Assembly: GCA_019117305.1 (NCBI GenBank) | Contig: DWZZ01000048.1 | Span: 1-34,167 of the forward strand | Direction of reading: 5' to 3' | DNA: 34,167 nucleotides | Origin: Candidatus Mediterraneibacter merdigallinarum | GTDB taxonomy: Bacteria > Bacillota > Clostridia > Lachnospirales > Lachnospiraceae | Shown: positions 9,383 to 23,353 of the stretch, one piece after another | Numbering within the stretch: position 1 is the first letter of the stretch | Layout: each line of letters begins with the position of its first letter | The notes under the pieces: model-generated | The model's database searches: none | What the model saw: the letters and a program-made list of their open reading frames with translations, nothing else | Told to the model about the DNA's origin: nothing | Made by a program: the position numbers and the translations under genes

Positions 9383-9794
9383 ACTCAATATCCACTACAC
9401 AATCCAGCCGGATCCGCATCCCGTCCTCCAGAATAATCTGACCGGCATCCGGATCGATCCGCCGGATCTTTCCCCTGGCCGTATGACAGGCTCCGCCGGA
9501 TTTTTTCTCATCCTGGACAAAATAAGTAAGCACAATCTCCGGTTTCTCTCCCGGAAGAGCGCAGGCAAGCTGAATTTTGTAATTCAGCTCCTGTTTTTCA
9601 TCCTCCGACAGATCCGGCCTCTCATCTGTCTGCCGGGCCGTCTCCTTTATTACTTCTCCGTATCCGGTCAGCGCGGCAAAGGGAGCGAACTGTGCCGCAC
9701 GGTCGGATACCGGCATGTGTGGATGAACGGAAGAAACGTGGTGAGGAAGATGAATAATATCCCCGTATTTTTTCTCTGCATCTTCTGTCTTCAT
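9327..9794 (-). CDS. YolD-like family protein
   Basis: MPVSDRAAQFAPFAALTGYGEVIKETARQTDERPDLSEDEK... is characteristic of YolD-like proteins and it sits next to a Y-family polymerase. The C-terminus looks replaced (see findings). Confidence 0.88.
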   Translation of the reverse strand: MKTEDAEKKYGDIIHLPHHVSSVHPHMPVSDRAAQFAPFAALTGYGEVIKETARQTDERPDLSEDEKQELNYKIQLACALPGEKPEIVLTYFVQDEKKSGGACHTARGKIRRIDPDAGQIILEDGMRIRLDCVVDIEFTGQLSQSALWKSDMPME

Positions 9795-11314
9795 GCTTTA
9801 TGACCTCCGATCTGGCTGTTCCTGTCCCTGGCAGTCGCCCCTTCTTCCAGATTCATTCCTTTCAGAACAGCATTTTTTCCGAACTTTTTCTTGATCTCCA
9901 GCACTGCTTTCTGCATCTTCCTTTCCCGCTCCAGCTCCGCCTCCTGCTTCTCCTGTTCTTTCTGCAGGGCGGCATAATCTGTAAAAAGATCCATCTGCTC
10001 AAACCGGGGTTCATTCTGTGCCTCAGCTTCCGGGATGACATGTGCCGCAGCCATGCTCAGTCTCCGCACCAGAAGTTTTTCATCTACAATGCAGTCAAAA
10101 AGTTCCGTGACCGCCTGTATAATCTGCCGCGTCGAAGAAGTATACTGCTTCAGATTGACTGTGCCGTGGGCATGCTTTGGTATCTTTCTTCCGTAACGGT
10201 CCGTCTTCACCTCTCCGCCGTACTTCTTCCGAAGGGCAGGATCCTTCAGATTGTCAATATCATATCCTACCGTCAGAACAATCTGATTGGTAACCAGTCC
10301 TTTCTCTACCAGATCCAGCGCAAGCAGATCCGCCATCTCCTTCGCTGCCAGTCTTGCCTTTTCAAAGGGATAGGCACAGTGAAGCACCTGTCCGGAGCCC
10401 ACGCTGCTGCTCCGGGGCCGGTATGCCTTGATATCTGCAATCGTGCATGGCTCCCACCCCCACGCATGATCGATCAGAAGTTCTGCGTTGACGCCGAACA
10501 GACTGTACAGAAGATCTTCATTGTAATAATCTGTCTGTTTGCCCAGAGAACAGCGGGCAATATCTCCCATGGTAAAAAGTCCGTGTTCTTCCAGTTTCTT
10601 CGCATATCCTCTGCCCACCCGCCAGAAGTCTGTAAGCGGCCGGTGAGACCACAGCAGGCGCCGGTAGGACATCTCGTCCAGCTCGGCAATACGCACGCTG
10701 TTCTCATCCGCCGGGATATGCTTCGCCTCAATGTCCATAGCAACTTTACAGAGATACAGATTCGGCCCGATTCCCGCCGCGGCAGTAATGCCGACAGTCT
10801 CAAGCACATCACGGATCATCTTCACAGCCAGCTCCCTCGGGGTCATCCGGTAAGTCCCCAGATAGGACGTAGCGTCAATAAACACCTCATCGATAGAATA
10901 GACATGGATATCCTCCGGCGCAATATATTTCAGATAAACCTCATAGATCTCGCTGCTGATCTGCATATAGCGCGCCATCTGAGGCGGCGCAACGATATAG
11001 TCCAGCGCCAGAGCCGGATCCTTTTCCAGATCCGGAGCCTGACAGGAGGATCCCGCAAACTTATACCCCGGGGCATTCTGCCGGCGCCGGGCGTTAACTT
11101 CCCCGACCTTCTGCACCACCTCAAACAGTCTCGGCCTTCCCGGGATACCATAAGCCTTCAGAGACGGGGAGACCGCAAGGCAGATGGTCTTCTCCGTCCG
11201 GCTTTTATCCGCCACTACCAGATTTGTAGTCATCGGGTCAAGTCCCCGTTCCATACACTCCACGGAAGCATAGAATGATTTCAGGTCAATTGCAATGTAA
11301 GTTCTCTCATCCAT
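9791..11314 (-). CDS. Y-family DNA polymerase (UvrX/UmuC-like)
   Basis: MDERTYIAIDLKSFYASVECMERGLDP...VYSIDEVFIDAT...TAAAGIGPNLYLCKVAMDIEAK are Y-family catalytic motifs. Confidence 0.95.
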   Translation of the reverse strand: MDERTYIAIDLKSFYASVECMERGLDPMTTNLVVADKSRTEKTICLAVSPSLKAYGIPGRPRLFEVVQKVGEVNARRRQNAPGYKFAGSSCQAPDLEKDPALALDYIVAPPQMARYMQISSEIYEVYLKYIAPEDIHVYSIDEVFIDATSYLGTYRMTPRELAVKMIRDVLETVGITAAAGIGPNLYLCKVAMDIEAKHIPADENSVRIAELDEMSYRRLLWSHRPLTDFWRVGRGYAKKLEEHGLFTMGDIARCSLGKQTDYYNEDLLYSLFGVNAELLIDHAWGWEPCTIADIKAYRPRSSSVGSGQVLHCAYPFEKARLAAKEMADLLALDLVEKGLVTNQIVLTVGYDIDNLKDPALRKKYGGEVKTDRYGRKIPKHAHGTVNLKQYTSSTRQIIQAVTELFDCIVDEKLLVRRLSMAAAHVIPEAEAQNEPRFEQMDLFTDYAALQKEQEKQEAELERERKMQKAVLEIKKKFGKNAVLKGMNLEEGATARDRNSQIGGHKA

Positions 11315-11371
11315 TCTTTCCGCCTCCCCGTATGATTTCATCCTCTTATATTTCTATCCTCTTTTATAGAA

Positions 11372-11407
11372 AGAATAACACAATTCCCGAATCCGAACAA
11401 GTGTTCT
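11372..11407 (-). promoter_or_regulatory. Promoter with LexA-type SOS box for the Y-family polymerase operon
   Basis: CGAAC-AAGT-GTTCT (11394-11407) fits the Gram-positive LexA box CGAACN4GTTCG with one mismatch. It overlaps a minus-strand TTGTTC-N17-TATTCT promoter. Confidence 0.75.
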
Positions 11408-11427
11408 TTTCCATTTTTTATATTGTA

Positions 11428-11456
11428 TTGCTCTTTCCCTGAACTGAGATTATAAT
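11428..11456 (+). promoter_or_regulatory. Putative sigma-A promoter of the MATE gene
   Basis: TTGCTC-N17-TATAAT upstream of the MATE start at 11517. Confidence 0.6.
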
Positions 11457-11516
11457 ACATATGCTGATCAGTTCTGTCAGAAAAATCACAGAATTGCAAC
11501 TTAAGAGAGGTATTTT

Positions 11517-12887
11517 ATGGAAACAGTACATCAGACAAAAAACGAAATTACAGAAGGAGTTATCTGGAAACAGCTTCTGCTGTTCTTTTTTCCGATTCTG
11601 CTGGGCACATTTTTCCAGCAGCTTTACAATACAATCGACAGCGTGATTGTGGGCCAGTTTGTAGGAAAAGAGGCTCTCGCCAGCGTAGGGGGCTCCTCCG
11701 CCCAGATCGTCTCTCTGGTTGTCGGTTTCTTTACCGGGCTCTCTTCGGGAGCCGCAGTTGTCATCGCCCAGTTTGTGGGCGCCCGGAAGGAAGAGACTGC
11801 CAACGCCGGACTGCACACCGCATACGCCATCGCGGCGGCCGGCGGAATCGCTCTTACATTTATCGGAATCATGACGGCGCCCTTTCTGCTCAGGCTTATG
11901 AATACGCCGGCCGATACTATGGACGGCTCCCTGACTTACCTGCGGATTTATTTCGCAGGCATTCTGTTTGTGCTCATCTACAACATGGGCTCCGCTGTTC
12001 TCCGTGCTGCAGGGGATTCAAAAACGCCCCTGTATATTTTGATTATCTGCTGTATTATCAATATTATACTGGACACGGCTTTTGTACTTCTTTTCCACAT
12101 GGGAGTCGCAGGCGTCGCTGTAGCCACACTGACCGCCCAGGCTGTCAGTGCTGTTCTCGTTACGCTCAAGCTGATGCGCTCTGACGGAATTCTGCATCTT
12201 TCCCTGAGAAAAATCCGTTTTCACGGTTCTCTTCTAAAGCTGCAGCTGAAACTGGGACTGCCCACGGGATTTGAATCCGTTCTGTTTGCGATTACAAATA
12301 TCGCCATTCAGACCGCCATCAATACATTCGGCACAGATACCACCGCTGCATGGTCTGCATACGGCAAGCTGGATGCCATTTTCTGGATGGTCAGTACCGC
12401 GTTCGGCATCTCCATCACCACTTTTGTAGGGCAGAACTACGGCGCGGGAAAGCTGGACCGTGTGCGCAGGAGCACACGAATCTGTATCTGCATAGATCTG
12501 GCTGTGTCCTTTGTTCTGGTGGCCCTGCTTATTCTGGCAAGAAGTCTTCTCTTCCGGCTGTTTACTTCAGATGAAACGGTTGTGCAGATCGGTTCCGATA
12601 TGCTGCTGTTTATCACTCCCTGGTATATTGTCTATGTGTTTATCGAGGTGCTGAGCGGTTCCCTGCGGGGCCGTGGAAATGTAATCGTTCCTGTGGTAAT
12701 CACCCTGGTCGGAGTCTGCCTTCTGCGGATCGTCTGGCTGGCAGGCGTGCTGAAAATCTCACCGACCATCCATGCAATTATCTTCAGTTATCCCGTAACA
12801 TGGGTTATCACGGCTCTTGCCTTTATCACATATTACCTGTGGCAGAACAGACGATACCGGCACAGATCTTCCGATACAGTCAGATAA
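11517..12887 (+). CDS. MATE family efflux transporter (full length)
   Basis: FFFPILLGTFFQQLYNTIDSVIVGQFVGKEALASVGGSSAQI...; 456 aa, twelve-TM pattern. Confidence 0.93.
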   Translation: METVHQTKNEITEGVIWKQLLLFFFPILLGTFFQQLYNTIDSVIVGQFVGKEALASVGGSSAQIVSLVVGFFTGLSSGAAVVIAQFVGARKEETANAGLHTAYAIAAAGGIALTFIGIMTAPFLLRLMNTPADTMDGSLTYLRIYFAGILFVLIYNMGSAVLRAAGDSKTPLYILIICCIINIILDTAFVLLFHMGVAGVAVATLTAQAVSAVLVTLKLMRSDGILHLSLRKIRFHGSLLKLQLKLGLPTGFESVLFAITNIAIQTAINTFGTDTTAAWSAYGKLDAIFWMVSTAFGISITTFVGQNYGAGKLDRVRRSTRICICIDLAVSFVLVALLILARSLLFRLFTSDETVVQIGSDMLLFITPWYIVYVFIEVLSGSLRGRGNVIVPVVITLVGVCLLRIVWLAGVLKISPTIHAIIFSYPVTWVITALAFITYYLWQNRRYRHRSSDTVR

Positions 12888-12967: not shown

Positions 12968-14815
12968 TCATTTCAGGACAATAATGCGGTCATACTCCGC
13001 TTCTGTCTGTTTCATTCCGTCCGTGCTCAGGCTGCTGGTCACGTACACATCCGGCGCCCACAGAAAATATCTGCACACATACCTGACTTCACCACTTGAC
13101 ACCTGCCCGTTCTCATCCGGCGCCACAATCAGATATTTCCTTGTATCTGTCTCCCCATTTTCATACCAGTGATCCCCCGCAATCCTCTCCACCTGCCCCG
13201 GCAGAGAAGTTTCATATCCGGCGCGGATGCTTCGCAGGCCGTTAAATTCTGAATATAAAAAGTTTATCCCGAGAATCACCGTTCCAAGCACCGCCCACTG
13301 ATATCTGCGTTTTGCCCCGGGGGAGGAGTATGCCCGGTATGCTCCCCGCTCATCGATATTCACCGCGAAGGATTGTTCCAGATCCACTGTCATCCCCATA
13401 ATCAGCGACCCTGCGAAAAGGACTGCCGCGCTGCAGGCGTACCTCTCAAAACCTGCCAGCCTCAGCGCCTCCTCTGCAGGCATAGAAAAAAGATACAGAT
13501 ACAGCATTCCGGCGTAATACAGAACCGTTACGGCAATACCGGAAACAAGAATCCATCCGAGCCTCCACTTCTTTTTCATCCTGAACCGGGCGTACAGAAC
13601 CGCTCCCGCGGCCAGAATCAGACTCAGAAAGATAATCTGCAGCGCCCGTCCGGAAGGATCAAAAGCGGCCTTCAGAAATGCTTCTGTCACCTGTCCGTAA
13701 AGCTCTCTTCCCACGGGCGCTCCATAATCTCCGGCCGCCTGTTGCGCGCCTGCCGTCAGCCACTGGCCGAACTTACCCTCAAAGCCTGCCAGATCCGTAT
13801 TCAGATGATGCTGCCACGCCAGAACAGGCAGCGCACTTCCGGCAGTCATCAGTGCTCCCCATAAAATCACTCTCATTCTGCACCGCATGTCCCGGAACAG
13901 TTTCCTGCGGCTGTGCAGCTTCACGTTTTCTTCCGACTTTCCTCCGCATATCTTCCGGGCGTTCTGCCGTTCGGTCCGGATTAATATCCACAGGGCGTAC
14001 GCTGCCGCCGTGCCGGCAAAAAATATTCCCGTGCTCTTGACGATTCCCGTATAGCCAAGAAGGATTATCTGGAGGAAACAAATCCTCTCCGGCTCTTCCC
14101 GGTATCGCCAGGATACTGCCAGGGACGCCATTGCCAGCAGAGGCAGCAGAAAATCCACCAGCAGATTATTTATCCGGATGGTCAGATTCAGATAGGACAG
14201 AACTGCGCACCCCATTCCCAGAAAAGAATAAAGCAGAAATCTCCTCCTCTCTTTCACAATACCGAATACTGCATAGAAACAGGCGAAAATCAGGCTGTTC
14301 TGCGCAAGAATCATCATGCCCTGAGAATGCCCGGCAAATCTGCAGACATAATAGATGAACAGACTGCTGCCCGGCGGATAATCCCGGAATGGTATCAGGA
14401 TGCTGTCCGCCCCCGGGAACCTGTCCGCAGACAGCAGATATTTCACGATCAGCGCCCAGTGGGAAAAATTGTCATAATGAATCATCTTAAGATTCAGAGA
14501 AAGAAGTGCAAATGCCATCGTTCCCAGGACAAAGCAGAACCCGCACAGACTCCCTTCCGGCAGATGTATTTCCCCTCTTATGAAAAAGACAAGAAATACA
14601 GCGAATCCTGCCACACCGCCCAGAAGCAGCAGATCCGCCGTCAGCGCCAGACAGTTCAGCAGTCCTCCCCAGAAAAGCACAAGGCCGATTCCTGACATAG
14701 AGACAACCGGCACGAACCATTTCCGCACTTTCCCGAACCGGTAAACGACAAAAAAATATCCCGGGAATGACAGGAAAAGCAGGAAAGCTTTCCCCGAATT
14801 CCATATCAGTTCCAC
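12968..14815 (-). CDS. Large polytopic membrane protein (615 aa), possible glycan polymerase/glycosyltransferase-like
   Basis: Many TM segments with an FRDYPPGSSLFIYYVCRF loop. Last gene of the c-di-GMP/GT2 operon; GTG start with GGAAGGTGAG upstream. Confidence 0.65.
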   Translation of the reverse strand: MELIWNSGKAFLLFLSFPGYFFVVYRFGKVRKWFVPVVSMSGIGLVLFWGGLLNCLALTADLLLLGGVAGFAVFLVFFIRGEIHLPEGSLCGFCFVLGTMAFALLSLNLKMIHYDNFSHWALIVKYLLSADRFPGADSILIPFRDYPPGSSLFIYYVCRFAGHSQGMMILAQNSLIFACFYAVFGIVKERRRFLLYSFLGMGCAVLSYLNLTIRINNLLVDFLLPLLAMASLAVSWRYREEPERICFLQIILLGYTGIVKSTGIFFAGTAAAYALWILIRTERQNARKICGGKSEENVKLHSRRKLFRDMRCRMRVILWGALMTAGSALPVLAWQHHLNTDLAGFEGKFGQWLTAGAQQAAGDYGAPVGRELYGQVTEAFLKAAFDPSGRALQIIFLSLILAAGAVLYARFRMKKKWRLGWILVSGIAVTVLYYAGMLYLYLFSMPAEEALRLAGFERYACSAAVLFAGSLIMGMTVDLEQSFAVNIDERGAYRAYSSPGAKRRYQWAVLGTVILGINFLYSEFNGLRSIRAGYETSLPGQVERIAGDHWYENGETDTRKYLIVAPDENGQVSSGEVRYVCRYFLWAPDVYVTSSLSTDGMKQTEAEYDRIIVLK

Positions 14816-14845
14816 CTGCTCACCTTCCTTCCAGTTCTGTCCTTT

Positions 14846-16771
14846 TCATGCTTTCTTCTTCCTCCGCTCCCGGCGCATCCGTATATTGCGGTATATTTCA
14901 TCATAAACAGTCAGCCACGGATCGATTTCCCGGGGAAGCGAGTGTTTCCGGTCATGAATAATCTGCAGCCACTGCCTCCGGTTTCTTTCATCTACCGGAG
15001 AAACCACTGCCGCAAGAAGCTGGCCGGACTCTTTTCCTTCCTTCAGAGGTTTCTCCCTGCTGTAAACGCATGACGCATTGAGAACTGCTTTATAATGGTC
15101 TGAGATAACCGCAACGTGAAATGTATCTCCCTTTTTCACAGACAGTTTTTCCGGAAGCCGCAGTGAAATCCCCTCTTCCGACACATCCGCCGTTCTCCCC
15201 CTGCGGTATTCTCCCCGGCTCCATATCTCCGCTTTTTCCTCTGCGCCGATCCTGTCTGAAACGCGCTGTGATTCTCTTCCCAGCATAAAAAAAAGCGCGT
15301 ACAGAAGAGCCACCAGGTTATACCCCAGCCAGAACAGGATCACGCTGCTGTACACCAGCGCCATTCCATACTTGCCCCGCAGGAACCGGATCAGGGACAG
15401 AACGGTAAGGATAATCAGAATCCCGTGAGGAATCAGGTAACGGGCGGATGTGGTCTTTGCCCTTTGCTTCCTTTTATCTGTTACTTTGAATTTCTTCTGG
15501 TGAATCCCCACCGATTCCAGAAAAACCGGGATAATCAGATAGGGGGCAAGGATGGTATCTATAATCTGGCTCCAGCGCAGATTCCGGATATTGGTGCTCA
15601 GATACCCCATAGATACACGGCTGCACACATATGACGGCAGCCAGAACAGCAGCAGCTCTCCAAACCCGCATTCCACCAGCCGGAACCCGAACAGGGCAAA
15701 GAGGACCGGAGCCAGGATAAAGATCATCCTGCACAGAAAAGACCACCAGTACAGATAGGAATTCAGATAGGACAGACGCGCCGCAGCCGTCAGTTCTTTC
15801 GCGAATACCGGGTTCGTATTCTGAATGCTCTGGATTACGCCCCTGGCCCACCGGATCCTCTGCCCGATCATGCTCTCTACCGTTGTAGTGGAAAGTCCTG
15901 CTGCCAGGACTTCCGTTGTGGCATAAGTGATATACCCTGCTTTCTGAAGACGCAGACTTGTTTCAAAATCTTCGGTCACCGTATCATACGGGAATCCGCC
16001 GATCTCTTCCAGTGCCGTCCGCAGGATGACGGTATTGCTTCCTGTATACACAGCAGTATTGGAAGCATTTCTCATTACATTGATCTCCCTCGAAAAAAAG
16101 TCCTGCTCATTGGGAATATCCTTTTCCGAAAAAAGATTGAACTGAAACAGGTCCTGATTGTAAAAACTCTGAGGTGTCTGTACCAGTCCCATCTTTTTCT
16201 CCGGTATAAAAAAATAGGGGACTGTCTTTACCAGAAACTCTCTTCTCGGAATCATATCTGCGTCAAATGTAGCAATCAGCGGAGAAAACGTGCAGGAAAG
16301 AGCATGATTATAGTTTCCTGACTTGGCATGCCGGTTATCTGAAAGCCCCAGATACCCCACGCCAAAATCCTCCGCAAGCTTCCGGATTTCCTCCCGGTTT
16401 CCGTCATCACACACATAAATATGAACTTTTCCCTTATTCGGATATTCCAGAAAGGTACAGGCATTGACTGTCTTATAAAGAAGCTTTGCGGATTCATTGT
16501 GGGTAGCAATAAACACATCCACGTCAGGAAACCGTTCCGGGGGAACCTCCGGAAGATGAATTTCATACCTGCTGCTTTTCATCCGTCCGGCCATCAGCTC
16601 CGCCATCCCCAGAAATGTTACCGTTTCCGCCAGAACCAGCGCGATCCCCGCTGCGGCCTGCAGAAAGCCGGCGCTCCAGGGAAGAGTAAAAAAAATCCTC
16701 CATAACAGATAAACCATGGAAAAGAAAATTGTCATCAGAAACCATATATTTCTCTTCTTTTCAGATGTCAT
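14846..16771 (-). CDS. BcsA-like membrane glycosyltransferase family 2 with C-terminal PilZ domain
   Basis: GT2 motifs DVFIATHNE, TFDADMIPR, VTEDFETSLRLQ, QRIRWARG (QxxRW). PilZ motifs RGEYR (RxxxR) and DVSEEG (DxSxxG). Start set at MTSEKKRN. Confidence 0.92.
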   Translation of the reverse strand: MTSEKKRNIWFLMTIFFSMVYLLWRIFFTLPWSAGFLQAAAGIALVLAETVTFLGMAELMAGRMKSSRYEIHLPEVPPERFPDVDVFIATHNESAKLLYKTVNACTFLEYPNKGKVHIYVCDDGNREEIRKLAEDFGVGYLGLSDNRHAKSGNYNHALSCTFSPLIATFDADMIPRREFLVKTVPYFFIPEKKMGLVQTPQSFYNQDLFQFNLFSEKDIPNEQDFFSREINVMRNASNTAVYTGSNTVILRTALEEIGGFPYDTVTEDFETSLRLQKAGYITYATTEVLAAGLSTTTVESMIGQRIRWARGVIQSIQNTNPVFAKELTAAARLSYLNSYLYWWSFLCRMIFILAPVLFALFGFRLVECGFGELLLFWLPSYVCSRVSMGYLSTNIRNLRWSQIIDTILAPYLIIPVFLESVGIHQKKFKVTDKRKQRAKTTSARYLIPHGILIILTVLSLIRFLRGKYGMALVYSSVILFWLGYNLVALLYALFFMLGRESQRVSDRIGAEEKAEIWSRGEYRRGRTADVSEEGISLRLPEKLSVKKGDTFHVAVISDHYKAVLNASCVYSREKPLKEGKESGQLLAAVVSPVDERNRRQWLQIIHDRKHSLPREIDPWLTVYDEIYRNIRMRRERRKKKA

Positions 16772-16775
16772 AGGC

Positions 16776-17933
16776 TCAGCCGTCCTTTCTTCTTTTCTGA
16801 AACACCCATCTTTTCTGCGCCTGGTAAGAAAAAATGAACAGAATGCCGTCACAAAGAAGCTTTGCCGCGGTCGGTTTTATGTGGAAAAATTCGGAGACCG
16901 CATATACCGAAAAAGCAGACACTGCAGTAATTCCGACACACAGAATCAGGTACCGGACAGCTTCCTTCTTTTTTCCCGAGGACCGGCAATGGTCTTTTCT
17001 CTGCTTTCTTCCCTTCACTTCTCTCCGGAAAACCCAGCTCCTGTTCAGAATAAAATTCACTGCCGCAGAAAGCACCCGCGCAATTACGGTAGCTGCGGCA
17101 ATCTGCCGGAACTGTCCCTGCTGCCCGGGACCGAAAAAACGGGAAAGCAGAGAAGTGCTCCGGATATGAGTAAAAGTTTCATCAAAAAGCCAGAAAAGAA
17201 ACAGATCCAGCAGTGCGCACAGCAGAGACGTGAATACAAATCTCCCGGGGCCGCCGAAAAGCGCTCCCGTAACCCGGAGGCTGTCCTGAACCGGCCTGAA
17301 ATGCGTACCTGCATTTTCATTTAGGTAAACCGTCTCAATCTTTTCCGTCCGCACGGGTATACCCTGTTCTGCGCACGCAAAGAGAACGCGCGTCTCATAC
17401 TCAAACCGGTCTCCGGGAATTTCCAGCATCTGATCCAGAAGCATTCCGTCAAATGCCCGGAATCCGGTCTGAGTATCTGCCAGATATATGCCGCTGAACA
17501 CCCGGAAAAGGACGGATGAAATCCGGTTTCCCAGTCTGGATTTCCAGGGAACCTCTTTTCCCGAAAAATCGCGGACGCCAAGAACCAGCGTATCCGGATG
17601 CTTTTCCGCTGTCCTTAACAGCCGCACTCCATCCTGCGGAAGGTGCTGACCGTCACAGTCCAGGCACAGCACTCTGCACGCTTTTCCGGCAGATTCACGC
17701 ACATACCGGAATCCTGTTTTCAAAGCCTGCCCCTTTCCCCTGTTTTCTCCATGATGCAGTACAATACATCCTGCCATCTTTTCGATCCGGTCAAATATCT
17801 CCCGGTAGTCCCTGCCGGATCCGTCGTCAATAACTACAACCTGCGACGGAATTTTCTCCTGAAGCTCTCTGATCTGTCTGCACAGTCCGGACTCCGGTTC
17901 CAGAGCCGGAATGATAATATATGTCCTCTTCAT
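16776..17933 (-). CDS. GT2 (DPM1/GtrB-like) glycosyltransferase fused to GtrA-type membrane domain
   Basis: YIIIPALEPESGL...VVVIDDGSG...LDCDGQHLP...TQTGFRAF; then GGPGRFVFTSLLCALLDLFLFWLF (GtrA). Confidence 0.9.
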   Translation of the reverse strand: MKRTYIIIPALEPESGLCRQIRELQEKIPSQVVVIDDGSGRDYREIFDRIEKMAGCIVLHHGENRGKGQALKTGFRYVRESAGKACRVLCLDCDGQHLPQDGVRLLRTAEKHPDTLVLGVRDFSGKEVPWKSRLGNRISSVLFRVFSGIYLADTQTGFRAFDGMLLDQMLEIPGDRFEYETRVLFACAEQGIPVRTEKIETVYLNENAGTHFRPVQDSLRVTGALFGGPGRFVFTSLLCALLDLFLFWLFDETFTHIRSTSLLSRFFGPGQQGQFRQIAAATVIARVLSAAVNFILNRSWVFRREVKGRKQRKDHCRSSGKKKEAVRYLILCVGITAVSAFSVYAVSEFFHIKPTAAKLLCDGILFIFSYQAQKRWVFQKRRKDG

Positions 17934-17939
17934 TTTCCG

Positions 17940-19688
17940 TCATCCTTTCCTGTCTGTCTCAGATGATACAGCCGGCTTCCCTTCATCTGGCCGGTCGCCG
18001 CCCAGAATCCTGCTTCTGGGGCAGTCTGATCTGCATCCGATACACTCCCTTCTCATGCAGTTAATCATTTTGCTGTTAATATAAAAGCGGTCTTTCCCCA
18101 GATATTTTGAAATATACAGCGCCGTATCCGCGCATTGATACAGATGCCTGTAATCCCGGATGCTCCCATCCACAGGAACCGCTCCAATGCTGGCGGAAAC
18201 CCGGTATTTGTCATAATCTTCTTTCAGTGCGCTGCGGATATCCTCAAGAAGAGCGCTGAACTTTTCCTCCAGGATTTCCTCCGACACAGAATTGCAGACA
18301 AGAACCACGAATTCATCCCCGCCAAGCCGGCCTGTGACATCCTCTTTTCTGAAGGCTTTGGACAGACACTGCGCGAATTTCTGAAGGGCCCGGTCTCCCT
18401 CCGGATGTCCTTTAAAATCATTGATCTGTTTAAAATTATCCAGGTCAAAAAGGATCAGCGCCCCGCCCGGATGCTCTTCTTTCAGAAATGCTTCTGCCCG
18501 GCGTTCAAAACCATTTCTGTTGTACAGGCCTGTAAGCGGATCATAATCCGCCTCTGTCCGCGCGGCAGAAAGCTGATCTTCCATCCGGTCCATTCCCTGT
18601 GATTTCTCCACATACTCCCGTTCAAGCTGAAAAATCATTTCCATCAGAGGCCTGAGCTCCGGGATCTCACTGCCGTCTTCTTTCAGTTCCCGCCCGCCCC
18701 GGATGATACGGCATATCTCCTCCGTGATCTGCTCAAAATGGCTGAACAGATATTTTTTCAAATGATGCCGCACCATCAGCACAGTCAGTACGCTGATAAA
18801 TCCGATCACTGCCAGTCCGATCCAGAATGTCAGAAATATATTGCCCAGCACCCGGTTCATACCGGAAAAAGCCACCAGATACATCTCATCCAGCTCTCTT
18901 ACCACCGCGCTCTGAAAGGCTCCTTTGACCGAAAGCAGCACTGGCTCCCCTTTTGGAAGCCGGGCAAGATAATCCAGCATCTCTTCACCCTCACTGACAT
19001 CTTTAAGCCGGATCTCCTGACTGTTGTTCTCGGTGATGCCGAAAACTCTGCCCCTTTCCTTACCAACTGCAAAAATGCTGGTCTCATATTCAGTTGTTGC
19101 CTGTTTCAGGATTGTTCCTACCACTTCTTTCCCGTTTAACAGTCCCGTCCGGGACATATCCGCGTCGATCCGCACTGCAGCGAACCGTTCCGACTGTGAT
19201 CCCGCGGCTGCGTAGAAATATTCCGGCCGGTTCTGAAAATCCGCCCTGTCAATCCGTACTGCAGTACTTTCCCCTTCTGCCGCAGTTTTCAGCTCCTCCA
19301 TCAGTGCTTCCTCTTCCCGGATTCCCTGCAGAGTTTCACTTGTACTTAAAAAAATTACTCCCTCTGAATCAATCAGGGAGATCTCGCCCGCCTTCATAAG
19401 TCCCTTCAGGATCTCCAGACCGTTTCTGTCAATCATCTGCGTATCGTGTGCCGCAATATACTCCACCGCCCGGGCCCGGTTTATATAATCTTCTGTCAGA
19501 TGCTCCAGATTCTCCTCATATTCCTGTGAGGCCTGTTCCAGATTTGCCTCCACACTCGTCAGAAGCTGATTCAGATATCTGCCGTTTTCCTCTACTCCCC
19601 TCTTATAAAGACTGACAGCAAAAATCAGCACGGTCAGGACAGCGGAGAGCAGAAATGTGGCTGCAAGTCTTTTATACAGCCGTTTCAT
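17940..19688 (-). CDS. Membrane diguanylate cyclase (GGDEF) with extracytoplasmic sensor region
   Basis: TM-flanked sensor, then DYDPLTGLYNRNGFERR...GRLGGDEFVVLV. RKED sits 5 aa upstream of GGDEF, the I-site position. Confidence 0.93.
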   Translation of the reverse strand: MKRLYKRLAATFLLSAVLTVLIFAVSLYKRGVEENGRYLNQLLTSVEANLEQASQEYEENLEHLTEDYINRARAVEYIAAHDTQMIDRNGLEILKGLMKAGEISLIDSEGVIFLSTSETLQGIREEEALMEELKTAAEGESTAVRIDRADFQNRPEYFYAAAGSQSERFAAVRIDADMSRTGLLNGKEVVGTILKQATTEYETSIFAVGKERGRVFGITENNSQEIRLKDVSEGEEMLDYLARLPKGEPVLLSVKGAFQSAVVRELDEMYLVAFSGMNRVLGNIFLTFWIGLAVIGFISVLTVLMVRHHLKKYLFSHFEQITEEICRIIRGGRELKEDGSEIPELRPLMEMIFQLEREYVEKSQGMDRMEDQLSAARTEADYDPLTGLYNRNGFERRAEAFLKEEHPGGALILFDLDNFKQINDFKGHPEGDRALQKFAQCLSKAFRKEDVTGRLGGDEFVVLVCNSVSEEILEEKFSALLEDIRSALKEDYDKYRVSASIGAVPVDGSIRDYRHLYQCADTALYISKYLGKDRFYINSKMINCMRRECIGCRSDCPRSRILGGDRPDEGKPAVSSETDRKG

Positions 19689-20463
19689 ATGCACCCCTCC
19701 ATCTGATATACTGTTCTTTCGGCAGCGGTCTGGAAAAGTAATACCCTTGTCCGAAATAACACTGGTGCTCCACAAGAAAACAGATCTGTTCTGCCGTCTC
19801 CACACCTTCAGCCACCACTTCCAGCCCCAGGCCTCCTGCCATTGTAATTGTAGACGCAAGAATAATATCCGCTCTGGGATCTCCGATTCTGCTGACAAAA
19901 TGCCGGTCCAGTTTCAGAATATCAAAGTGGACTTCCTGTAATAATTTCAGAGTAGAACAGCCGGTTCCGTAATCATCCATGGCAACCCTGTATCCCTCCT
20001 CCTGCAGATCATCCGCAAGCTGTATTATCCCTTCCCCGCCGTTTTCTTCCGCAGATGTCTCCGTAATTTCAAAAGAAAGATCTTGCCGGGTCACTCCATA
20101 CTGTTCTGTAAGCCTCCGGAACCGCTCCGGAGTCTCCTGCCTTTCTGCATGCAGCCTGGACAGATTCACTGATACAGGACCAAATGGAATCTTCCGCTGT
20201 TTCGACTCACTGATATCCTGACAGACAATCCGCATCACTTCCGCATCCAGCAGCGCCGTGAGTCCCGCTTTCTCCAGAAGCGGAATGAATTCATCCGGCC
20301 GCACCAGACCACTGTCCTGTCTCTGCCAGCGGACAAGCGCTTCTGCACCTCTTGGAACCCCTGTCCTCATGTCAACCTGAGGCTGATACCAGACATGAAA
20401 CTCTCTGTTCTTCAGTGCCTCTCCAAAGCGTTCTGCCGTCTCCGATAATCTGTCTGTTCCCAT
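19672..20463 (-). CDS. EAL-domain c-di-GMP phosphodiesterase
   Basis: AEALVRW, VSVNLSR, FEITET, MDDYGTG, KLDR and VAEGVET catalytic motifs all present. GGAGG RBS before the ATG at 20463. Confidence 0.93.
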   Translation of the reverse strand: MGTDRLSETAERFGEALKNREFHVWYQPQVDMRTGVPRGAEALVRWQRQDSGLVRPDEFIPLLEKAGLTALLDAEVMRIVCQDISESKQRKIPFGPVSVNLSRLHAERQETPERFRRLTEQYGVTRQDLSFEITETSAEENGGEGIIQLADDLQEEGYRVAMDDYGTGCSTLKLLQEVHFDILKLDRHFVSRIGDPRADIILASTITMAGGLGLEVVAEGVETAEQICFLVEHQCYFGQGYYFSRPLPKEQYIRWRGAYETAV

Positions 20464-20546: not shown

Positions 20547-21890
20547 TTATTTTTCTTTCACCCACGGAAATATAAGGGTAATCTCAAATATATTCTCTGT
20601 CTGTTTAACCCTGAAGTATCCGTCCATATTTTTCATCATCTTCTCCACATTATGCAGTCCGATATTCGTGTTGCCCTCTGTTTTTCTCCGGTCTTCCGTG
20701 CTGCAGCTGATCCCGTTTCGAAAGGCCAGACCTCCGTACTCTTCCGTGTATATGGTTTCTATTCGCACAGGCATGCTCTTATCTGCATATTTTTCGATAT
20801 TGGAAACAATGTTGTCCATGATCCTGTTTATATACTCTTCATTTACACGAATCTGTCTCCTTTCACTGCCTGATCCGGTGTCCGGCCGCAGTTCCACTGT
20901 ATATCCGCGCTCCCCCAGATAAGCTGTCATTTCCGAGAGGGGATCGTAAAAGAGCTCCCGCAGTGTCTGCGGCTCCCCGAGCTCTGCTTTTGTTTCCTCT
21001 GTGATAAGGGCATATTCGAATATATTGTCTGACAGACGTTTGATCTGACGTGCCTTTTTCTCGATCTTGCGGACATACTCCATAGCCTGCCGCGGGTCTT
21101 TTGCTGCTTTCTTCCCGAGTATCTCCGTATAAATGAGCAGTGAAGTAAGCGGAGTTCTCAGATCATGGGACATCTCGGTTATCATTCTGCGGTTGGCGGC
21201 TGTAAGCTCTGCTTCTTTTTCATTGCTCTCTCTGAGGGCCATGCGCATATTGTCAAGTCCGCGCGCAAGTAGAGAAAGTTCGTCCTTTCCCTGTACTGTG
21301 ACCTGATAATCGAGATCCCCGCTCCCCAGGATCTCACATTCAGCTTTCAGTCTGCCGATATACCGCACGGGTTTCCGTATGCCCAGTATCACAATTGCGA
21401 CAAGCAGAATAACTGCGAGGAGAATTTCCGCTGTCATGGCATAACTGTATAACGGATATGAGAAAAATCCATACAGAAATACATCCGCCGTTCCATCTGC
21501 AAATTCCGCTGTATAGTAATACTCCCAATCGTAATACGCTCCCTCCGCCTCTGCGTCTTCCACAGCAGCATCGGGATAATTGGAATCATAGGTAAGAATC
21601 TCGTCCTTATAAACCTGGATGGATACAATCTTCCGCTTTCTCACCCATTCTGTAAGTTTTTCCGAATCGTTCGACGCCGCTTTGGTTTCGTCTATGTAGT
21701 CCTGAAGATCCTGTATATACGCTTCGCTCAGTTTTTCAATATGGCTGCTGTCCGAAAAAACTTTCGTAATAATCTGTTCACCCGCGTAGTTTATCACGAC
21801 GAAAAACAGGCCAGACACCGCTACTGCAGCAAGCAGCAGCCCCGCCAGTTTAAAATACAAAGAGTGCATCTTCTCCCTAACGTTCTCCAA
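20547..21890 (-). CDS. Two-component sensor histidine kinase
   Basis: Two TM segments, HAMP-like region, MSHDLRTPLTSLLIYTEIL (H box), IMDNIVSNIEKYA (N box). Confidence 0.93.
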   Translation of the reverse strand: MENVREKMHSLYFKLAGLLLAAVAVSGLFFVVINYAGEQIITKVFSDSSHIEKLSEAYIQDLQDYIDETKAASNDSEKLTEWVRKRKIVSIQVYKDEILTYDSNYPDAAVEDAEAEGAYYDWEYYYTAEFADGTADVFLYGFFSYPLYSYAMTAEILLAVILLVAIVILGIRKPVRYIGRLKAECEILGSGDLDYQVTVQGKDELSLLARGLDNMRMALRESNEKEAELTAANRRMITEMSHDLRTPLTSLLIYTEILGKKAAKDPRQAMEYVRKIEKKARQIKRLSDNIFEYALITEETKAELGEPQTLRELFYDPLSEMTAYLGERGYTVELRPDTGSGSERRQIRVNEEYINRIMDNIVSNIEKYADKSMPVRIETIYTEEYGGLAFRNGISCSTEDRRKTEGNTNIGLHNVEKMMKNMDGYFRVKQTENIFEITLIFPWVKEK

Positions 21891-22581
21891 ACCTGTACCC
21901 CTTTCCCCACACTGTCAGAATGAGCTTCGGATTCTTCGGGTCTTTTTCAATCTTTACACGCAGTCTCCGGATATGTACCATCACCGTAGAATTGCAGTTA
22001 TAAAAGTACGGCTCGTTCCAGACGCTTTCATACAGATTCTGAGCAGAAAATATCTTGCCCGGATATTTCATCATCAGCAGCAGAATATTGTACTCAATCT
22101 CTGAGAACTCCACATTTTCACCATTTATGAGTACTTCATTAAACTCTTCGTTAATCCGTATGCCCGCCTGCTCAATGTATTTCTGCGTCTGCTCCTCTTT
22201 GGGTTCTTCTTTACACCTGTATATCTTCCATCTTCTGATTAGCGCCTTTACTCTGCCGAGGAGTTCAGAATAGGAAAACGGCTTTGCCAGATAGTCGTCC
22301 CCGCCAGCCATAAGACCGATCAGCTTATCTGATTCCTGCGATCTTGCCGTCAGAAACAGAACCGGGACATAAGAAATCTTCCGGATCTCCTCGCAAGTTT
22401 TAAGCCCGGATATTCCCGGCATCATTACATCAAGTATGACGAGATCCGTCTCCTCTTTCATAAGCTCAAGACCTTTCCTTCCATTCTCCGCCTCCGATAC
22501 AGAATACCCCTCTCCTTCCAACAGGATTCTCACTCCTTCCCTTATATCCGCATCATCCTCTACAATCAATATCTTTTCCAT
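21877..22581 (-). CDS. OmpR/PhoB-family response regulator
   Basis: ILIVEDDADIREG...VILDVMMPGISG...LFLTA...GGDDYLAKPFSYSELLGRVKALIRR plus winged-helix C-terminus. Confidence 0.95.
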   Translation of the reverse strand: MEKILIVEDDADIREGVRILLEGEGYSVSEAENGRKGLELMKEETDLVILDVMMPGISGLKTCEEIRKISYVPVLFLTARSQESDKLIGLMAGGDDYLAKPFSYSELLGRVKALIRRWKIYRCKEEPKEEQTQKYIEQAGIRINEEFNEVLINGENVEFSEIEYNILLLMMKYPGKIFSAQNLYESVWNEPYFYNCNSTVMVHIRRLRVKIEKDPKNPKLILTVWGKGYRFGER

Positions 22582-22679: not shown

Positions 22680-23183
22680 TCAGCGGGATTTTCTGCCGGA
22701 ATTTGTACCGGATGAATTCCTGTTTTTCCCTGAGGCAGCTGAGTTTTTCTTTCCTGATTTTTTATTGGATGAACTGCTGTTTTTTCCTGAACTTCTGCCC
22801 GTAGAACCTGCAGAACTGCCTTCGGTACTTTTTTTACTGTTGCTGCCGGAGCTGTTCGTTCTGTCAGAGCTGCCCGAATTCCTGTTCTTAGAATTCTGAC
22901 CGGTGTTTCCGGATTTTTTGTCATTGGAGCTCTGACCTTTGTTACGCGAATTTCTGTCGGAATTACTGTCTGAGCTATTGGAAGTATTTCCCGATCTGCC
23001 GTCAGATTTTCCTGTCGAAGAACTATCTGAACTTGTGCTTGTAGAGCTCTTACTATCTGACTTCTTACTGTCATTTCCTCCACATGCTGTGGCCGACACT
23101 GCCATCATAGCCACCATTCCCAGAACCAGACCTTTCTTCATAAATCCTTTTATCTTCTTTTCTGCTGTGTTTCTTTTCTGCAT
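22680..23183 (-). CDS. Low-complexity Ser/Asn/Gly/Lys-rich lipoprotein
   Basis: MQKRNTAEKKIKGFMKKGLVLGMVAMMAVSATACGGNDSKKSDSKSSTSTSSDSSS...: signal peptide with lipobox SATAC, then almost exclusively S/G/N/K/R/D/T. Confidence 0.75.
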   Translation of the reverse strand: MQKRNTAEKKIKGFMKKGLVLGMVAMMAVSATACGGNDSKKSDSKSSTSTSSDSSSTGKSDGRSGNTSNSSDSNSDRNSRNKGQSSNDKKSGNTGQNSKNRNSGSSDRTNSSGSNSKKSTEGSSAGSTGRSSGKNSSSSNKKSGKKNSAASGKNRNSSGTNSGRKSR

Positions 23184-23353
23184 ATTCCTTGTCCTCTCTT
23201 TCTTATAGCAGGATTTCAAAGGCTTCTCTGTTATGACTGTTCCTGCTGTCTCTGCCTTTGATGGTTCTTATTATCAGGCACAGACCTTAACCAATCCTGA
23301 ACGAATTCTTAATAAATCTGAAATCCTTTGTTTTCCTGCAGAGAGGCGCGTGT

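Follow-up and report, generated by a model that had tools for sequence, protein, structure and literature searches.

In a 34,167-nt stretch of DNA from Candidatus Mediterraneibacter merdigallinarum (contig DWZZ01000048.1, assembly GCA_019117305.1; the whole stretch is hereafter called the window), five genes that form a tight minus-strand operon at positions 12968-20463 encode, in this order, an EAL protein, a GGDEF protein, a GT2-GtrA fusion, a BcsA-like GT2 protein with a PilZ domain and a membrane protein of 615 amino acids (aa). The locus raises the question of what a polysaccharide synthase does in one row with enzymes of cyclic di-GMP (c-di-GMP) turnover and with membrane glycosylation proteins. 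We favour, with a probability of roughly 0.6, a c-di-GMP-controlled, synthase-dependent exopolysaccharide (EPS) operon that carries its own decoration module. The first-pass annotation of the window had proposed five genes in this order without a BcsB, BcsZ or BcsC-like partner; all five open reading frames were recovered, and no BcsB, BcsC or BcsZ gene was found in the operon. The gene starts were set by comparison with homologues, which favour the ATG at 19688 over the overlong GGDEF reading frame listed mechanically. Apart from the EAL/GGDEF overlap, the genes are separated by 4 to 30 nt.

19672-20463, minus strand: putative stand-alone EAL c-di-GMP phosphodiesterase, 263 aa (Pfam EAL 3.4e-63; conserved catalytic motifs)
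17940-19688, minus strand: putative membrane-bound diguanylate cyclase, GGDEF with I-site (Pfam GGDEF 1.4e-35; start ATG 19688; 17-nt overlap with the EAL gene)
17985-18060, minus strand: C-terminal cysteine cluster of the cyclase, C-x4-C-x2-C-x3-C-P (alignment of operon homologues)
16776-17933, minus strand: GT2-GtrA fusion, 385 aa, probable polyprenyl-phosphate sugar synthase and flippase (Pfam; 6-nt gap after the GGDEF gene)
14846-16771, minus strand: BcsA-like processive GT2 with C-terminal PilZ, 641 aa (start ATG 16771; 4-nt gap after the GT2-GtrA gene)
15047-15268, minus strand: PilZ domain of the synthase (25.1 bits, above cut-off; the single match in the source genome, G000)
12968-14815, minus strand: 615-aa polytopic membrane protein, probable GT-C glycosyltransferase (start GTG 14815; 30-nt gap; AlphaFold2 fold)

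Conservation of the operon and nature of its synthase

With each species represented by a single genome, the scan yielded 30 loci with a related synthase, of which 29 were counted after Clostridium thermobutyricum (44% identity, without the operon) had been left out. All five genes occur in identical order at 19 of the 29 loci, which bears out the neighbourhood check suggested for the first-pass annotation, and the order is conserved beyond chance. The remaining loci are cut by contig ends (L050, L055, L056 and L061) or lack one or more genes, no EAL gene being detectable upstream at L046, L047, L048 and L057. Within the genus, a synthase match was present in 26 of 58 species, with at least 70% identity in 25 of those. 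In the tree, the operon synthases form a fully supported clade that also includes the two copies of a larger Lachnospiraceae genome, and sequences under the label Oscillospiraceae (from the isolate Ructibacterium gallinarum and a Fournierella metagenome-assembled genome, MAG) nest within the Lachnospiraceae group, which suggests transfer. We found no literature on such an operon in Lachnospiraceae. Judged by their titles, the records of the named carriers (L032-L061) are mostly from chicken gut (ChiBcec, CHK, Chicken_mag, gallinarum, caecigallum), a tally made without a base rate of chicken MAGs for the genus.

The synthase resembles BcsA along its full length: the PDB sequence search matched E. 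coli BcsA at 3e-78, and the Pfam GT2 match was 2e-20. The catalytic set of Bcs GT2 enzymes (D, DxD, TED, QxxRW) and the gating loop FxVTxK are present, and the motifs DDG, DAD, TED, QRxRW (here QRIRW) and FxVTxK (here FKVTDK) are conserved. The CelA family match, BcsA as the best solved relative and motifs shared with RiGT2, the Cgs glucan synthase of Romboutsia ilealis, would be expected of an ordinary operon of clostridial type for the synthesis of cellulose (Ccs) or of mixed-linkage beta-glucan (Cgs). However, the CelA score (TIGR03030) is 395.5 bits against the NCBIfam equivalog threshold of 699.1, the CcsZ, CcsB, CcsH and CcsI genes are missing from the operon, and the operon synthases stand apart in the separate clade described above; MBOAT and AlgX/DHHW acetyltransferase genes instead flank synthases of about 40% identity in other Lachnospiraceae. 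We therefore regard an ordinary Ccs or Cgs operon as distinctly improbable. As an observation in its own right, a BcsA-like gene on an Enterococcus gilvus megaplasmid (L144) overlaps a gene annotated as a glucosyltransferase domain protein (GtrII-like), which makes another pair of synthase and membrane glycosyltransferase.

The probable decoration module and its plasmid relatives

The GT2-GtrA protein matched Pfam GT2 (4.6e-16) and GtrA_DPMS_TM (PF04138; 1.2e-13, 51.7 bits against a cut-off of 26.1), both above cut-off, and its best NCBIfam kin, AglJ and PpgS, were both below theirs. It is probably a polyprenyl-phosphate sugar synthase joined to a flippase, and by its domains it fuses two parts of known three-component glycosylation systems. 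For the 615-aa membrane protein no Pfam family and no sequence relatives in the PDB were found. Its 25-sequence AlphaFold2 model (predicted local distance difference test score, pLDDT, 79.5; predicted template modelling score, pTM, 0.85) had as its three best PDB folds ArnT (probability 1.00, twice) and then oligosaccharyltransferase (OST; 0.92), both of which use lipid-linked sugars, and the model thus points to a probable GT-C glycosyltransferase. Among the homologues HYDNFSHW (113-120) is invariant and YPPG is conserved; both may echo the acidic and PP motifs found in GT-C enzymes. Moreover, of six genomes from other families with distant GT-C kin, three have a GT2 or GT2-GtrA gene next to it. 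The GtrA fusion and the membrane protein had been placed in the positions of BcsB, BcsZ and BcsC on first pass; the Pfam matches and the GT-C fold make them look like a decoration module, and the 615-aa protein as a stand-in for BcsB is unsupported. Since the synthases of about 40% identity adjoin MBOAT and AlgX/DHHW genes where this operon has GT2-GtrA and GT-C, related synthase operons seem to have swapped the one modification module for the other.

Among plasmid records, the search found the GT2-GtrA protein, the synthase and a protein of 617 aa on conjugative plasmids of Levilactobacillus brevis KB290 and L. plantarum (L142/L143), the KB290 genes having the same order and identities of 33% (GT2-GtrA), 40% (synthase) and 28% (GT-C). 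In the larger Lachnospiraceae genome mentioned above (G448), one of the two synthase copies (L093, L094) is accompanied by GT2-GtrA and GT-C and the other stands alone. The trio at L094 has no adjacent c-di-GMP genes. As it occurs without these genes both there and on the plasmids, the trio looks like the functional unit. A 2019 paper, known to us by its title and citation, reportedly ascribes the production of EPS, aggregation and resistance to bile to this KB290 glycosyltransferase operon. KB290 cured of pKB290-1 loses aggregation and gastrointestinal tolerance; two further plasmids, which could be lost by themselves without effect, were cured along with it, and the two glycosyltransferases of pKB290-1 were named as candidates (PMC3609814). 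A further report cites the KB290 EPS as containing glucose and N-acetylglucosamine (PMC10185785). The first-pass statement that the polymer is unknown was thus too strong. By analogy, a two-sugar EPS would fit a two-enzyme model of backbone and decoration, in which linkage and the assignment of enzyme to sugar are not proved.

An alternative is that GT2-GtrA and GT-C glycosylate another acceptor, such as teichoic acid or a surface protein, and share only their control with the EPS synthase. In the reports consulted (PMC13390465, PMC7389260), the characterised Gram-positive GtrA-type systems do target teichoic acids or secondary wall polymers, and distant GT-C kin adjoin GT2-GtrA in the absence of a BcsA-like gene. 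On the other hand, the order of the trio is kept from Clostridia chromosomes to Lactobacillus plasmids, and two sugars are cited for the KB290 EPS. We consider a separate acceptor unlikely and retain decoration of the synthase's own polymer as the preferred reading.

The c-di-GMP circuit and the question of gating

The catalytic motifs predicted for both c-di-GMP enzymes on first pass proved conserved. In the EAL protein, EAL, NLS, EITE, DDYGTG, LKLDR, EGVE and QGYY are kept in 23 homologues, an intact catalytic set that suggests phosphodiesterase activity; at one locus (L137, Sellimonas caecigallum) the operon-adjacent EAL gene is larger, a 768-aa frame in which EAL is fused to a sensor and to a degenerate GGDEF domain. 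The I-site RxxD and the GGDEF motif of the cyclase are invariant in 24 homologues, consistent with a putative diguanylate cyclase activity. The cyclase is built of a transmembrane helix, an extracytoplasmic sensor, a second transmembrane helix and the GGDEF domain with its I-site. Its model has a long transmembrane helix, an alpha/beta extracytoplasmic region and the GGDEF domain, for which alone the Foldseek search was informative. Of 24 operon homologues, 23 carry the cysteine cluster CMRRECIGCRSDCPRS at the C-terminus, the exception being Ructibacterium; no other GGDEF match listed from 391 genomes of the class covers it intact. It resembles half a ferredoxin motif and is a possible Fe-S or Zn site; a literature search on iron-sulphur diguanylate cyclases found nothing relevant.

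How far the circuit belongs to the operon was assessed in 25 carriers and 33 non-carriers of the genus, many of them incomplete MAGs, with strong GGDEF matches defined as those over 100 bits. Besides the operon's own, no strong GGDEF was detected in 19 of the 25 carriers and no other PilZ in 20; since both held in 17, the signal circuit looks private to the operon. The operon PilZ is the only PilZ in the source genome and in seven other operon genomes. Strong GGDEF proteins were wholly absent from 18 of the 33 non-carriers. In M. catenae and relatives the leftover weak GGDEF is a GGDEF-EAL protein that reads TGDQY or TGDEY (TGDQY in M. catenae). Isolates such as M. catenae seem to possess one competent diguanylate cyclase, one PilZ and two EAL proteins, and only one of the EAL proteins is encoded outside the operon. 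No Rfam match to a c-di-GMP riboswitch was found within the window and no class I riboswitch in the source genome and seven other operon genomes, class II not having been searched genome-wide. The notion that the operon encodes the sole diguanylate cyclase of every carrier was rejected, as further ones are encoded in the source genome and in four other carriers.

The first-pass domain assignments agree with Pfam and NCBIfam, except that the PilZ domain matched its profile weakly (5e-4, under the Pfam cut-off in the protein scan and over it, at 25.1 bits, in the genome scan), and the motif evidence thus carries more weight. RxxxR and DxSxxG (DVSxxG), noted on first pass, are present and conserved across homologues; R503, R507, D529, S531 and G534 are unchanged in 29 operon synthases, while the mean conservation over 510-600 is 0.59. 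Such invariance within a drifting domain is the pattern expected from selection for c-di-GMP binding.

Several observations weigh against c-di-GMP control or against the decoration assignment. Thr replaces the BcsA tether residue Glu371 in the operon synthase, as in RiGT2. RiGT2 keeps RxxxR and N/DxSxxG but is reported neither to bind c-di-GMP nor to be activated by it, and it loses its activity without its PilZ (PMC10374906). The L. brevis plasmids retain PilZ motifs without adjacent GGDEF or EAL genes. Elsewhere, on a different contig, the source genome encodes a second PAS-GGDEF-like protein that is intact, and five carriers, including the source genome, encode further strong GGDEF proteins; the circuit is therefore not always private and not exclusive in the source genome. 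The GT-C match is one of fold alone, without a sequence match (Foldseek E about 0.01, TM score about 0.4). The GT2-GtrA gene is missing at L061 and also at L058, where GT-C is retained, and L054 consists of the synthase and the GT-C membrane protein alone. The KB290 polymer data are second-hand and concern composition only (PMC10185785).

The RiGT2 result, the shared Thr and the KB290-type operons without neighbouring cyclase or phosphodiesterase genes would all be accounted for if the synthase were constitutive like RiGT2, the PilZ domain structural, and the EAL and GGDEF proteins active through transcription or another receptor. Precisely the c-di-GMP contact residues are, however, selectively invariant; no class I riboswitch was found in the eight genomes searched and no second PilZ in most carriers; and the negative binding test of RiGT2 rests on an isolated PilZ-GFP, a caveat given by its authors (PMC10374906). 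A constitutive synthase appears to us rather unlikely, although gating is the main uncertainty of the favoured reading, with the PilZ contacts for it and RiGT2 against it. Of the first-pass description of the system as self-contained and signal-gated, the first half stands, the operon often holding the only strong GGDEF and PilZ, and the second is stated too firmly, given the RiGT2 negative and the shared Thr.

In a c-di-GMP-controlled EPS operon, the membrane cyclase would sense an extracellular cue and make c-di-GMP, its cysteine tail perhaps sensing redox or metal, and the EAL protein would degrade the signal. We infer that c-di-GMP binding to the PilZ domain would switch on processive glycan synthesis, the chain being extruded, with no need of BcsB, by way of the channel within the synthase itself. 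GT2-GtrA would load a sugar onto polyprenyl phosphate and flip it outward, and the GT-C protein could then move the lipid-linked sugar onto the emerging chain outside the cell. By analogy with KB290, the product is probably a cell-bound, aggregating EPS with glucose and N-acetylglucosamine, e.g., a glucan with N-acetylglucosamine side residues. More tentatively, the operon could be a transferable EPS cassette that brings a private circuit of one cyclase, one phosphodiesterase and one PilZ receptor, a metal- or redox-tuned cyclase and a GT-C-decorated polymer into hosts otherwise without c-di-GMP synthesis; we consider this extension possible but doubtful. c-di-GMP biology has mostly been read in organisms with dozens of cyclases and phosphodiesterases, and as nearly all c-di-GMP parts of M. 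catenae lie in one operon, signal specificity is directly testable there. The operon could also help to decide whether c-di-GMP gates the PilZ synthases of Gram-positive bacteria; RiGT2 speaks against such gating, the gene context here for it. It ties synthase-dependent EPS to post-polymerisation glycosylation in chicken-gut bacteria and probiotic Lactobacillus.

The neighbouring genes include a two-component system, separated by 83 nt from the downstream EAL gene.

20547-22581, minus strand: two-component system, histidine kinase 20547-21890 and response regulator 21877-22581 (Pfam HisKA/HAMP, Response_reg/Trans_reg_C)

It was rejected as an operon member, being missing beside the operon in relatives, and is probably outside the conserved unit. 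Next to this VanR/VanS-like system lies a Ser/Asn-rich, low-complexity, lipoprotein-like reading frame of 179 aa (22680-23219, minus strand) with no Pfam family. A Y-family DNA polymerase-like gene and a MATE transporter lie downstream (9791-12887) and recur next to the operon at L032, L046 and L060, the loci of M. catenae and two further carriers; elsewhere the flanking genes vary between loci. In the promoter and terminator scan, promoter-like sites were no commoner than in shuffled sequence.

Comparison with known systems

RiGT2 is likewise a Gram-positive BcsA-like GT2-PilZ protein of about 640 aa without BcsB, with the same motifs and Thr at the Glu371 position; it differs in that the accessible text of its report names no GtrA/GT-C or cyclase/phosphodiesterase partners and describes it as c-di-GMP independent in its assays (PMC10374906), the comparison being one of motifs and not of a tree. 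The clostridial cellulose system ccsZABHI shares a CcsA-type GT2-PilZ and modification genes linked to the synthase, whereas it modifies by O-acetylation (MBOAT and DHHW) and has the GH5 protein CcsZ and CcsB (PMC7710045); the operon here has glycosylation genes, and no CcsZ, CcsB, MBOAT or DHHW gene accompanies its synthase. Three-component extracytoplasmic glycosylation (GtrA/GtrB/Gtr, CsbB/GtcA/YfhO; PMC11127046, PMC7389260) combines a polyprenyl-phosphate sugar synthase, a GtrA flippase and a GT-C transferase; here the putative sugar synthase and the flippase are fused and, with a candidate GT-C transferase, tied to synthase-dependent EPS and c-di-GMP enzymes. Firmicutes EPS systems that are likewise c-di-GMP-linked and have a BcsA-like GT2 are pssA-E of Listeria (PMC4125290) and gts with dgcA/pdeA of L. 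acidophilus (PMC6123363); their receptors, however, are the GGDEF-domain PssE and the degenerate-EAL PdeB, respectively, rather than PilZ, and both are described without GtrA or GT-C. The pKB290-1 operon (LVISKB_P1-0027/-0028 and the next gene) has a homologous GT2-GtrA, BcsA-like GT2 with PilZ motifs and GT-C-like protein in the same order, with HYDNFSHWALIVK identical, but it is plasmid-borne in Bacilli, at 28-40% identity, and lacks an adjacent EAL or GGDEF gene. The polymer-making core is thus of an already known kind, and what is new is that it is firmly coupled to a cyclase and a phosphodiesterase of its own, that the circuit is nearly private to the operon and that the cyclase bears a cysteine tail.

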